Part shown: positions 21,844 to 25,623 of the stretch, piece after piece | Layout: every line of letters starts with the position of its first letter | How positions within the stretch are numbered: the stretch's first letter is position 1 | Origin: an uncultured Pelagibacteraceae bacterium | Lineage (GTDB): Bacteria > Pseudomonadota > Alphaproteobacteria > Pelagibacterales > Pelagibacteraceae | Reading direction: 5' to 3' | DNA: 64,000 nucleotides | NCBI GenBank assembly: GCA_902519255.1 | Contig: CABYIV010000005.1 | Span: forward strand, 1 to 64,000 | The notes under the pieces: generated by a model | Databases searched by the model: none | What the model was told of the DNA's origin: nothing | The model's input: only the letters and a program-made list of their open reading frames with translations | Made by a program: the position numbers and the translations under genes

Positions 21844-22146
21844 TTATTTTTTCTTCTTCTTATACATTTGCAACATTCTTTGAGTTACAAGGAAACCACC
21901 AAAGATATTAACAGCTGCTAAAATTATAGCTAAAAATCCAAAAATATTTGATGTTTCAAATATATTATCTGAGGCGCCAGCTAATGCTGCAATAATAGCT
22001 CCTACTATAATAACTGATGATATCGCGTTAGTTACTGACATTAATGGTGTATGTAATGATGGCGTCACACTCCATACAACATAATAGCCGACAAAAATTG
22101 ACAATATAAATATACTTAACCTAAATATAAAAGGATCTATTTCCAT
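21844..22146 (-). CDS. pntAB: NAD(P) transhydrogenase subunit alpha part 2
   Basis: Small membrane subunit of about 100 residues corresponding to the C-terminal membrane domain of E. coli PntA. There are three TM helices with HTPLMSVTNAISSVIIVGAI, the family block. A Lys-rich tail follows. Its start overlaps the pntAA stop by one base, and pntB follows after 2 bases. Confidence 0.96.
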   Translation of the reverse strand: MEIDPFIFRLSIFILSIFVGYYVVWSVTPSLHTPLMSVTNAISSVIIVGAIIAALAGASDNIFETSNIFGFLAIILAAVNIFGGFLVTQRMLQMYKKKKK

Positions 22147-23234
22147 TATTTAACCTTTGTCTTTTCAATTATTTCATCATCTAGATTTATGATAAAATTG
22201 TTTTTTTCTTTATCATATAAATTATTTATAAAATTAAATAAATTTTTTGCATAAAGGTTTGATGCAGAGATTGGTAATTTGTTTAATATATTGGATTCTC
22301 CCATAATTTTCACTCCTCCACTGTCGATTATTTCATTAACTTTTGTTAATTCCGAATTGCCGCCTTGTATTGCCGCCAAATCATAAATAATTGAACCACT
22401 TTTCATAACATCTATCATATCTTTTTTTATTATTAATGGTGCTTTTTTTCCAGGGATTAATGCGGTACAAATAACAATATCAATTTTTTTTAATGTTTCT
22501 TTTAATAATTGTTCTTGTTTTTTTTTGAAATCATCAGAGGTTTCTTTGGCATAGCCTCCTTCGGTTTCTAAATTTTCTATTCCTTCAACAGTAAGAAATT
22601 TTCCGCCTAAGCTTTCTACTTGTTCTTTAGATGCCATCCTTACATCGGTTGCAAAAACTATAGCTCCCATTCTTTTTGCAGTTGCAATTGCTTGCAAACC
22701 AGCGACACCTGCACCAACTACCAAAACTTTTGCTGCAGAAATAGTACCTGCTGCTGTCATCATCATTGGAATAGCTTTTTCAAAATAAGCAAAAGAATCT
22801 ATTACAGCTTTATAACCTGCTAAATTAGCTTGAGAGGACAATATATCCATTGATTGTGCTCTTGTAATCCTTGGCAAAAGTTCTAATGAGAAACAGATTA
22901 TATTCTTTGAAATTATATCTTTTAATTTATTCTCGTTTAAGAATGGGTTTAATACCCCAATTAGTATTTGGTCTTTTTTTAATTTATTTAAATTTTCATC
23001 ACTCAATATACTCATCTGCAAAATAGCATTTGAATTTTGGATTACTTCTTGGTCACTAGATAATATGTTAGCGCCTTCTGCCTCATACTCTTTATCTTTT
23101 ATACCTAAATGAATTGCATAATCTTTTGTTAAATTTACTTTTAAACCTAAAGATATATATTTTTTTACAACATCTGGAGTTATGGCAACTCTTTTCTCTT
23201 GATTTAGATTTTCAGAAATTGATCCAACAATCAT
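22146..23234 (-). CDS. pntAA: NAD(P) transhydrogenase subunit alpha part 1
   Basis: Soluble NAD(H)-binding domain I of the transhydrogenase, related to alanine dehydrogenase. The N-terminus MIVGSISENLNQEKRVAITP and dinucleotide fold VLVVGAGVAGLQAIATAKRMGA are present, along with RITRAQSMDILSSQANLAGY. Its 362 residues match split alphaproteobacterial PntAA. It starts one base after the small cox gene upstream. Confidence 0.97.
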   Translation of the reverse strand: MIVGSISENLNQEKRVAITPDVVKKYISLGLKVNLTKDYAIHLGIKDKEYEAEGANILSSDQEVIQNSNAILQMSILSDENLNKLKKDQILIGVLNPFLNENKLKDIISKNIICFSLELLPRITRAQSMDILSSQANLAGYKAVIDSFAYFEKAIPMMMTAAGTISAAKVLVVGAGVAGLQAIATAKRMGAIVFATDVRMASKEQVESLGGKFLTVEGIENLETEGGYAKETSDDFKKKQEQLLKETLKKIDIVICTALIPGKKAPLIIKKDMIDVMKSGSIIYDLAAIQGGNSELTKVNEIIDSGGVKIMGESNILNKLPISASNLYAKNLFNFINNLYDKEKNNFIINLDDEIIEKTKVK

Positions 23235-23235
23235 T

Positions 23236-23346
23236 TTATAAAAGAAATATCGCCATTAAGATAAGTACAATTATAACTGCTACCGATCCCCAAAGTACAA
23301 ATTTAGTAAAATTATTCCATGTATTTTTGTGACTTTCGTTATCCAT
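23236..23346 (-). CDS. aa3-type cytochrome c oxidase subunit IV-like protein
   Basis: A 36-residue protein (MDNESHKNTWNNFTKF at the start, then one TM with VAVIIVLILMAIFLL). The pattern H-x(n)-W-x2-F-x2-F-x3-G followed by a single helix ending LMAIFL is that of the tiny bacterial aa3 oxidase subunit IV (COX4_pro_2 family). Alphaproteobacteria often encode it next to pntAA, as here, where the gap is one base. rpmJ ends 5 bases upstream. Confidence 0.8.
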   Translation of the reverse strand: MDNESHKNTWNNFTKFVLWGSVAVIIVLILMAIFLL

Positions 23347-23351
23347 TTTAA

Positions 23352-23477
23352 TTATTTTTGTCTTGCTTTAAACTTAGGATTTTTTTTGTTTATTATATAA
23401 ACTCTTCCTCTTCTTCTTACTAGTTTAGAATTTAAGTCTCTTTTTTTTAAAGATTTTAGTGAACTTGCAATTTTCAT
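23352..23477 (-). CDS. rpmJ: 50S ribosomal protein L36
   Basis: A 41-residue L36 with [17 protein letters not shown] at the start and [21 protein letters not shown], the alphaproteobacterial form that lacks the zinc-binding cysteines. It lies between the epimerase gene (5-base gap) and the oxidase subunit, within the run that begins at the 5S rRNA. Confidence 0.95.
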
Positions 23478-23482
23478 AAAAT

Positions 23483-24367
23483 TTATTTTTCAACTTTAAT
23501 AAACGAACTTATGTAATCTTTCAAACTTATTTTTCCAAATTTTTTAACAACTTTATTGTTAAATGATAAATTTGTTAAAGCTGAAGCATATCTTTCGCCA
23601 AGTCTAGGTGGCAAATACTTAGTTTTGGATCCGAACATTTTTGCCACTTCATTTATTGAGTAACTTTTTTTATGACTAATACTATAATGCTTACATTTAT
23701 TAGCTTTCCAAGCATCATAACATACTTTAACTGTATCAGATATATGGGTAAATCTCCTAGTCTGAGTCCCTGGCTTAACAATAGTTAAAGGTTTGTTGTT
23801 TTTATATTGTCTTTCGAAAATTCCAATTACTGTGGCCATACTGCCTTTATCTATCTGTCTTTGACCATAAACATTATAGAAGTATAAGATTTCAAATTTG
23901 AAATTAAACCAATTCTTTAAATTTTCTAATAATTCCAAATTTTTTGATTTTGTAAATGCGTAAGGTGATAAATTTTTATCATAACCTGAGTTGCCTAGGC
24001 TTGCAGAAGTGGCTGAATATATTAATTTAATTTTATTATCTAAACAGAATTTAAATACTTCCTTACTACCAACTGTGTTACTTTCATAACATTCATTAAA
24101 TTTTTTAAAACTTTGAAATATTCTAGCAAATTCACCAAAGTGAAAAACTGTAGAAATTTTGTTTTTGTATTTATTTAATTTTTTTTTTATATTTAAAGTA
24201 CTTCCGTTAATATATAAAACTTTGCTAGATTTAATATGATTTTGCTTTAAACCAGTTGAGTAATTATCTAAACTTATAATTTTAAAATTTGTATTATTTA
24301 AAAAATATTCAATAAGATTAGATCCGACAAAACCTGCGCCACCTGTTACTAAAATAAATTTTTTCAT
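23483..24367 (-). CDS. NAD-dependent epimerase/dehydratase
   Basis: Extended short-chain dehydrogenase of the UDP-glucose 4-epimerase type. The Rossmann motif GGAGFVG is at residues 9-15, the catalytic Ser region is YSATSASLG and the Tyr-Lys pair is in SPYAFTKSK. The 294-residue length and C-terminal [13 protein letters not shown] block fit sugar-nucleotide epimerases. The exact sugar is unknown. It lies on the core side of the 5S gene and starts only 15 bases after the 5S 3' end, without a Shine-Dalgarno. Confidence 0.85.
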
Positions 24368-24382
24368 TTAGGTAAGAATTAA

Positions 24383-24499
24383 GCCTGGCAATGTCCTACT
24401 CTTCCATGTCTTAAGACAAAGTACCATCGGCGCAGAAAGGCTTGACTTCCGAGTTCGGAATGGAATCGGGTATTACACTTTCGCAATAATCACCAGGCA
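24383..24499 (-). rRNA. rrf: 5S ribosomal RNA
   Basis: The minus strand reads TGCCTGGTGATTATTGCG at the 5' end and GTAGGACATTGCCAGGC at the 3' end, with the conserved CCGAACTCGGAAG and CGCCGATGGTA internal elements. The ends pair as the helix I stem, giving about 117 bases. No 16S, 23S or tRNA lies next to it. A polysaccharide island occupies the upstream side, where 23S would normally be. It has its own promoter. Confidence 0.96.
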
Positions 24500-24503
24500 C
24501 AGC

Positions 24504-24532
24504 TTTATACAAACTTAAAATATAAATGTAAA
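24504..24532 (-). promoter_or_regulatory. Sigma70-type promoter of the lone 5S rRNA gene
   Basis: On the minus strand TTTACA (24527-24532) and TATAAA (24504-24509) are separated by exactly 17 bases. The predicted start falls at about 24497-24500, the mature 5' end of 5S. The -35 and -10 each differ from consensus at one position. Confidence 0.7.
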
Positions 24533-24600: not shown

Positions 24601-25623
24601 ATGGCAAAAAAAGTAGCACTTATAACTGGCATATCTGGGCAAGATGGCGCTTACCTAGCAGAATTTTTATTAAATAAGAATTATAAAATAATTGGAACAG
24701 ATAGAAGATCTGCAAGAGGTAATAATTGGAGATTAAACAGACTTGGAATACTAAATAAAATTCATTATGAGGAAATGGAATTAGGAGAGTTATATGAAAT
24801 TGAAAGAATATTTAAAAAATATGATATCGATGAAGTTTATAATTTAGCAGCACAATCATTTGTTGCTACATCATTTAAAAGTCCACTCAATACTTCGAAT
24901 GTTACAGGACTAGGAGTATTAAGAATTTTAGAAACAATTAAATCAATAAATCGAAAAATTAAATTTTACCAAGCCTCATCATCAGAAATGTTTGGCAAGA
25001 TTTTTGACAAAAAACAAAGCGAAAAAACTCAGTTAAATCCCCAAAGTCCATACGCTATTTCAAAAGTTTTTGGGCATTATATGACAGATAATTATAGAAA
25101 GTCATATGGCATGTATGCTGTTTCAGGAATTTTATTCAATCATGAATCACCTTTAAGGGGAGAAGAGTTTGTGACTAGAAAAATAATTTTGGGGTTAGTA
25201 AAAATAATTAATAATGACCTAAAGTGTTTAGAATTAGGAAATATTTATGCAAAAAGAGATTGGGGATATGCCAAGGAATATGTAAGTGCTATGTGGAAAA
25301 TGCTTCAAAAAAAAAAACCTAAGGATTATGTGATTTCTACTGGAAAAACTTACAGTATTAAATATTTCATAAATTTAGCAACCAAATATTTAAATTTAGA
25401 AACAAAATGGGTGGGAAGAGGATTGAATGAAAAACTTATAAACCTAAATAATAATAAAACAATAATAAAAATTAATCCTAAGTTATTTAGACCCGCAGAA
25501 GTAAATATTTTAAAAGGAAACTCAAATTTAGCAAAAAAGGAATTAAATTGGCATCCAAAAACAAACTTAAAAATGTTGGTAAAAATTATGGTTGATCAAG
25601 AAATTAAATTTTATAAAAAATAA
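24601..25623 (+). CDS. gmd: GDP-mannose 4,6-dehydratase
   Basis: Converts GDP-mannose to GDP-4-keto-6-deoxymannose. The Rossmann motif ITGISGQDGAYLAEFLL is at residues 8-24. The catalytic triad blocks SSSEMFG and SPYAISK are present, as is NHESPLRGEEFVTRKI, which is specific to GMD. I set the start at ATG 24601; the frame continues to a TTG at 24583 but the family starts here. It is the first gene of the polysaccharide island and lies back-to-back with the 5S promoter. With fcl it supplies GDP-fucose. Confidence 0.95.
   Translation: MAKKVALITGISGQDGAYLAEFLLNKNYKIIGTDRRSARGNNWRLNRLGILNKIHYEEMELGELYEIERIFKKYDIDEVYNLAAQSFVATSFKSPLNTSNVTGLGVLRILETIKSINRKIKFYQASSSEMFGKIFDKKQSEKTQLNPQSPYAISKVFGHYMTDNYRKSYGMYAVSGILFNHESPLRGEEFVTRKIILGLVKIINNDLKCLELGNIYAKRDWGYAKEYVSAMWKMLQKKKPKDYVISTGKTYSIKYFINLATKYLNLETKWVGRGLNEKLINLNNNKTIIKINPKLFRPAEVNILKGNSNLAKKELNWHPKTNLKMLVKIMVDQEIKFYKK

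Follow-up and report, generated by a model that had tools for sequence, protein, structure and literature searches.

The 5S rRNA gene and its surroundings

The window (the whole stretch of 64,000 nt that was analysed) carries a 5S rRNA gene on the minus strand, with a divergent gene, the first of a polysaccharide island, on its upstream side.

24383..24498, minus strand: 5S rRNA gene (RF00001, 87.3 bits over 24383-24497; one base added to reach the helix-I G)
24601..25623, plus strand: GDP-mannose 4,6-dehydratase, the divergent gene that opens the island (PF16363, 1.1e-117; ATG at 24601)

The 5S match exceeded the gathering cut-off of 38 bits and covered model positions 1-120. It was the sole 5S match obtained in an Rfam search of the 33-contig assembly, and neither 23S nor 16S adjoins it, which bears out the isolation of the gene claimed in a preliminary description of this DNA. 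The island placed upstream by the same description was confirmed by the dehydratase and by Pfam matches to glycosyltransferase, epimerase and FkbM-type methyltransferase genes beyond it, and more island-like ORFs were recognised by eye in the part of the contig lying beyond the window, to position 74637. No 23S end was present in the approximately 50 kb between 5S and this contig end, and no 23S match was obtained anywhere in the assembly (83.8% complete). The 5S gene was present in exactly one copy in each of the 11 single-contig genomes of the family with a 5S match.

The separation of 23S and 5S by the hypervariable region HVR2, taken as known in the preliminary description, is indeed already published: available sections of Wilhelm et al. 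(2007, PMC2217521) give a distance of 48 kb in HTCC1062 and propose 23S and 5S as recombination sites for HVR2. Excerpts of PMC7318151 attribute one rRNA operon to subclades IV and V and a split to all other Pelagibacterales, with a similar statement on the split in an excerpt of PMC3815206. This arrangement was found in relatives of the window, with 34-62 kb between 23S and 5S on the same strand of five shared contigs (G154, G316, G106, G297 and G201), and in part in the window's own genome, the assembly of which is without 23S. A 23S match was obtained in 14 of the 30 genomes searched and was missing even from some single-contig genomes; we read these cases as due to masking or filters, not to absence, because the 16S match was also fragmented or missing in G081, G384 and G408.

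Promoter elements upstream of 5S

A putative promoter lies immediately upstream of 5S, on the same strand.

24527..24532, minus strand: −35 element TTTACA of the 5S promoter (from the sequence; 77 of the 93 same-genus loci that reach a score of 10 have exact TTTACA, see below)
24504..24509, minus strand: −10 element TATAAA (from the sequence; 76 of the same 93 loci have TATAAA, TATAAG or TATAAC)
24498 (24497-24499 allowed), minus strand: predicted transcription start, the first G of 5S helix I (discriminator of 5 nt here)

The two hexamers, TTTACA (24532-24527) and TATAAA (24509-24504), are separated by a 17-nt spacer and followed, after 5 nt, by the helix-I G at 24498, a geometry within that of sigma-70-type promoters (hexamers 16-18 nt apart, start 5-8 nt past the −10). 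In the window alone, this pair is unremarkable and proves nothing: a generic scan of 2.3 kb of the window yielded 14 promoter-like sites, versus 14.4 expected, and did not list the TTTACA/TATAAA pair, because its −10 lacks the final T. The elements are also short and embedded in very AT-rich sequence, which counts against them.

The corresponding sites of relatives were scored for TTTACA/TATAAA with a 16-18 nt spacer, 4-8 nt before helix I (maximum 12, with 0.5 added for a −10 ending in G or T). Of 399 same-genus genomes, 284 gave a 5S match, and 119 loci were chosen among these for a high rank in the score list or for good assembly, not by promoter; L017, the helix I of which starts with ACCTGG and was not anchored (TTTACA is visible upstream), was dropped, leaving 118. 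At the exact 5S-anchored site, 93 of these 118 loci scored at least 10, versus 48 of 2360 dinucleotide shuffles (2%). Without the extra half point, 93 loci again reached 10, as did 74 of 95 once upstream sequences at least 70% alike had been removed. Within the window's family, Pelagibacteraceae (hereafter referred to as f1), the same score was attained by 28 of 30 loci from the five other genera (hereafter referred to as g2-g6), whereas it was attained by none of the 16 loci of a sister family (hereafter referred to as f2) and none of 29 loci from other class members, two possible anchors being allowed for each locus in these three sets. The class sample comprised 57 genomes, 27 of which had no 5S match under stricter filters and were left out. 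The promoter is thus present in six genera and absent from outgroups in which 5S still lies behind 23S, and it therefore goes with the split. An own promoter for 5S and the stability of the arrangement, both suggested in the preliminary description, are supported by this comparison.

The position of the elements was also conserved. Among 99 exact TTTACA hexamers within 300 nt upstream of 5S in the 118 loci, 78 fell into one 5-nt bin (−35 to −31). Identity among unrelated upstream sequences was 0.55 at −35 and 0.49 at −10 to −6, versus 0.31-0.46 in the remaining bins between −100 and −11. The gap between the −10 and helix I in the 93 high-scoring loci was 6 nt in 62, 5 nt in 25, 7 nt in five and 4 nt in one. 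Such gaps are the normal distance from the −10 to +1, and transcription should therefore begin at the first base of mature 5S. The predicted start at the mature 5' end, like the TTTACA-17-TATAAA promoter itself, had been put forward from the window alone; the geometry was correctly described, conservation across relatives supports the promoter, and its place (87 of the 93 loci have a gap of 5 or 6 nt) makes the predicted start well supported by comparison.

Among the 25 of the 118 loci scoring below 10, 17 had TATAA with a weaker −35 (TTGATT in five) and four had TTGACA with TATAT; no recognisable promoter was present upstream of 5S in L049. Two g3 loci (L272 and L273) scored 9. A scan of named genomes for the promoter together with the start of 5S gave at least 119 stretches, and the 80 matches listed were all titled Pelagibacteraceae, Pelagibacter or Pelagibacterales, a result only partly independent, as the pattern contains SAR11-like 5S bases. 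Overall, conservation raises the predicted 5S promoter well above chance.

Loss of the precursor stem and of the 23S neighbour

The flanks of 5S pair with each other in ordinary rRNA operons. A stem was considered clearly better than expected if the flank duplex was more than 4 kcal/mol beyond that of shuffled flanks. For 155 Pelagibacteraceae loci, the mean was −3.4 kcal/mol, versus −3.8 for shuffled flanks, and the duplex was clearly better in four loci. The corresponding values were −15.3 versus −6.4 kcal/mol in f2 (clearly better in 16 of 16) and −20.3 versus −9.0 kcal/mol for the class loci (23 of 29). Likewise, a 23S tail was found upstream of 5S in none of the 118 same-genus loci (0.4-1.5 kb examined: 54 loci with 1.5 kb, 60 with about 1 kb and four with a shorter stretch), versus all 16 f2 loci and 27 of the 29 class loci. 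The gene belongs to the same 5S family as that of the standard alphaproteobacterial 16S-23S-5S operon, but has neither the 23S neighbour nor the precursor stem of that operon. On these comparisons, the window's family has lost the precursor stem; a promoter at 5S would make 5' trimming needless.

One class outgroup locus (L307, G597) has a 5S gene without a 23S tail in 1.5 kb upstream, and its flanks seem complementary by eye.

Genes downstream of 5S

The downstream side of 5S, which the preliminary description did not cover, contains four ORFs on the 5S strand.

24368..24382, minus strand: AT-rich linker of 15 nt, presumed cleavage zone, without room for a terminator and without a Shine-Dalgarno-like tetramer (from the sequence)
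23483..24367, minus strand: NAD-dependent epimerase/dehydratase, between 5S and rpmJ (PF01370, 7.8e-30)
23352..23477, minus strand: rpmJ (bL36), translation without cysteine (PF00444, 2.1e-16; 5 nt past the epimerase stop)
23236..23346, minus strand: 36-aa ORF of the aa3-type cytochrome c oxidase subunit IV family (PF07835, 7.8e-11, via the homologue at HTCC1062 coordinates)
22146..23234, minus strand: pntA-like gene, core flank of the island (PF05222 and PF01262)

The epimerase ATG of the window lies 15 nt past 5S. The first gene after 5S was rpmJ in 70 of the 118 loci, an epimerase in 45 and another sugar-nucleotide-type gene in three; in g2-g6 it was rpmJ in 26 of 30 and an epimerase in four, with similarly tight spacing. 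The next start codon lay 6-28 nt past 5S in 114 of the 118 loci (median 11), and 78-81 nt past it in the other four. These 114 linkers were 88% AT, with five consecutive T residues in three and an SD-like tetramer in none. On the 5S strand, rpmJ was present within about 3.3 kb downstream in 117 of the 118 loci: in the 48 loci with another gene first, it followed right behind in 40 and in L008, lay 1.8-3.3 kb from the 5S start in six, and was cut off by the contig end in one. Between the epimerase gene and rpmJ, L421 (G392) and L423 (G046) have an ORF of about 236 aa on the opposite strand, such that rpmJ must use another promoter there.

No terminator was found between 5S and the epimerase gene in the window, and 112 of the 114 linkers, at 6-20 nt, leave hardly any space for one. 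With a looser scoring, no internal promoter for the next gene reached 10 in 5S or the linker in any of the 114 loci, whereas the promoter before 5S reached 10 in 109 of them. The genes thus lie on one strand, tightly spaced and without a terminator, save for the 78-81-nt gaps and the opposite-strand ORFs. With such tight linkers and no internal promoter, a joint transcript of 5S, the epimerase gene (where present) and rpmJ, perhaps extending into the pnt genes, is the simplest and most likely reading of the sequences. The earlier proposal that 5S is expressed alone is not supported by linkers of this length before the next start codon. A bacterial ribosome covers about 15 nt before the start codon, and one translating the uncut RNA would thus run into the folded 5S.

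In three loci (L424, L425 and L426), 5S and rpmJ are separated by three sugar-nucleotide-type ORFs, and the gap past 5S is longer, at 79-81 nt. The inserted ORFs of L421 and L423 show that additional genes are gathered on the far side of 5S as well. No match to the 5S-rpmJ region was found in phage records.

Gene order in the sister family

In f2, 5S lies directly behind 23S, and rpmJ was found 54-78 kb downstream on the same strand in the seven of 16 genomes with both on one contig; seven others had rpmJ and 23S-5S on different contigs, and two had no rpmJ match. A pntA-like gene lies 1.8-2.4 kb past rpmJ in all 14 f2 genomes having both, and several of the first ORFs past 5S resemble sugar-nucleotide genes (by motif, by eye). 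The flanks of the island therefore seem to correspond between f1 and f2, with 5S apparently having crossed from the 23S flank to the rpmJ-pnt flank, and this move suggests how the split arose. One g3 genome (G406), with a pntA-like gene 71 kb from rpmJ, counts against this simple picture. The sister family may be one of the subclades, IV or V, with a single operon.

All nine complete 23S loci listed (L032-L040) continue with TGCACTGAAAAAAATTT and then with variable sequence; this element may mark where the shortened rRNA operon now ends.

The predicted 16S promoter and the balance between 5S and 23S

A pair TTGA..-16-TA..AA. was found upstream of 16S in 26 of 30 loci (L332-L361); 24 of these have TTGATT-16-TATAAG, at a distance of 214-242 nt from the 16S mark. 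Variants were found in L357 (TATAAC) and L353 (TTGACT with TAAAAC); three g2 and g3 loci (L332-L334) had no match to the pair, and in L355 the pattern is visible but was uncounted because of the short upstream sequence. The 16S and 5S units thus share a similar predicted −10 and differ in the −35. Bacteria are usually thought to balance 5S and 23S through one common RNA. With this link gone, the two RNAs have to be balanced through two promoters or through decay of the surplus, and the split provides a natural test of how tightly the stoichiometry of rRNAs must be controlled.

Proposed organisation and alternatives

We consider it probable that 5S heads a transcription unit of its own, starting at helix I and running into rpmJ, through the epimerase gene where there is one. 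A housekeeping sigma-70-type promoter (TTTACA, 16-17 nt, TATAAA/G) would set +1 at the first base of helix I, and the mature 5' end of 5S would be made by initiation, with no precursor to be cut. This is in keeping with the lost precursor stem and predicts a 5S with a 5'-triphosphate. Transcription would pass 5S into rpmJ, with or without the epimerase gene, and possibly into cox4 and pntA, and cleavage of the 5S 3' end within the short AT-rich linker would leave the mRNA with almost no leader. Two separate promoters with a like −10 (16S: TTGATT-16-TATAAG), rather than one transcript, would keep 5S and 23S in balance. Comparison of relatives establishes the conservation and place of the promoter, the stem loss and the gene order; the start site, co-transcription, cleavage and balance we infer. 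Without attenuation, transcription of an epimerase gene from a promoter of rRNA strength would be costly, and this argues against a unit of this kind.

More tentatively, 5S may constitute the 5' part of the bL36 mRNA, keeping its triphosphate, while 3' excision frees the near-leaderless message, such that 5S maturation and bL36 synthesis are coupled and the island sugar genes lying between are driven by an rRNA promoter; we regard this extension as possible rather than likely. The 5S-rpmJ junction would then be a possible direct link between the output of rRNA and that of ribosomal proteins. No special contact between bL36 and 5S is known, so a functional coupling is hypothetical.

The origin of the unit could differ without any change to the present mechanism, if the promoter was at first that of an rpmJ/epimerase operon, the leader of which received 5S when this gene moved. 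Such a history would be consistent with the position of 5S at the head of the unit and with the presence in the sister family of rpmJ near pntA without 5S. However, the elements stand at a fixed distance from the 5' end of 5S, and none of 14 f2 loci reached 10 for a 5S-type promoter in the 150 nt before rpmJ, below the 8.6% of shuffles, so we consider it unlikely. A 5S gene with its own promoter might also be transcribed alone, with transcription ending at 5S (e.g. through Rho-dependent termination, or with rapid decay of the RNA beyond) and other promoters serving the genes downstream. The two of 117 loci with an opposite-strand ORF, in which rpmJ manages without 5S, and the four with 78-81 nt before the next start codon agree with such an ending, but the short linkers of the other loci, the absence of any promoter-like site of score 10 from 5S or the linker in these loci, and the tight spacing also observed in g2-g6 make it quite improbable. 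Trimming of 5S from a long island or 23S transcript, with the hexamers as an AT-rich coincidence, would suit the 86 of 117 loci in which the neighbouring upstream ORF has the same direction, but is highly improbable given the tens of kilobases between 23S and 5S, the lack of a precursor stem, a promoter far above shuffles and absent from outgroups, and, for 31 of 117 loci (the window included), a nearest upstream ORF that is divergent, which excludes read-through from that gene there. Read-through from 23S or the island was thus rejected on grounds of distance and divergent neighbours, and 5S as the head of its own unit remains our preferred reading.

Relation to known systems

SAR11 bacteria are among the most abundant cells of the ocean, and the comparisons above make a family-wide rewiring of an essential RNA gene well supported. 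Solitary 5S genes are also known in some archaea. A solitary 5S, likewise unlinked from 23S, is reported for Mycoplasma hominis. The window shares the split with the published HVR2 arrangement, but the promoter, the processing and the 5S-rpmJ unit are not treated in the available sections of PMC2217521, and the word “promoter” occurs zero times in that paper. Thus, the split is known, whereas no report of a SAR11 5S promoter, of stem loss or of a 5S-rpmJ transcript was found in the portions of open-licence full texts covered, and these features are apparently unreported. A “5S rRNA gene operon” is mentioned, without more, in an excerpt of one paper, and a search by title found no paper on transcription start sites in SAR11 or Pelagibacter. 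The available part of Meyer et al. (2009, PMC2704228) places rpmJ before pntA in HTCC1062 and names 5S or rmlB as the gene most often 5' of the pntA motif; this is the same gene order as described here, but is given in passing for another motif, with no treatment of 5S transcription in that part.

The candidate structured RNA concerned, the “pntA element” (HTCC1062 564786-564910, L369; excerpt of PMC2704228), coincides with a 36-aa ORF matching PF07835 (7.8e-11). In G408, rpmJ (564660-564782) and a pntA match beginning at 564917 frame the published HTCC1062 interval. An ORF of 25-50 aa was found just past rpmJ in 103 of 200 loci, and in the others it was either absent or outside the sequence; the 45 peptides listed were all recognisably of this kind. 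The pntA element is therefore probably a missed coding gene rather than an RNA motif.
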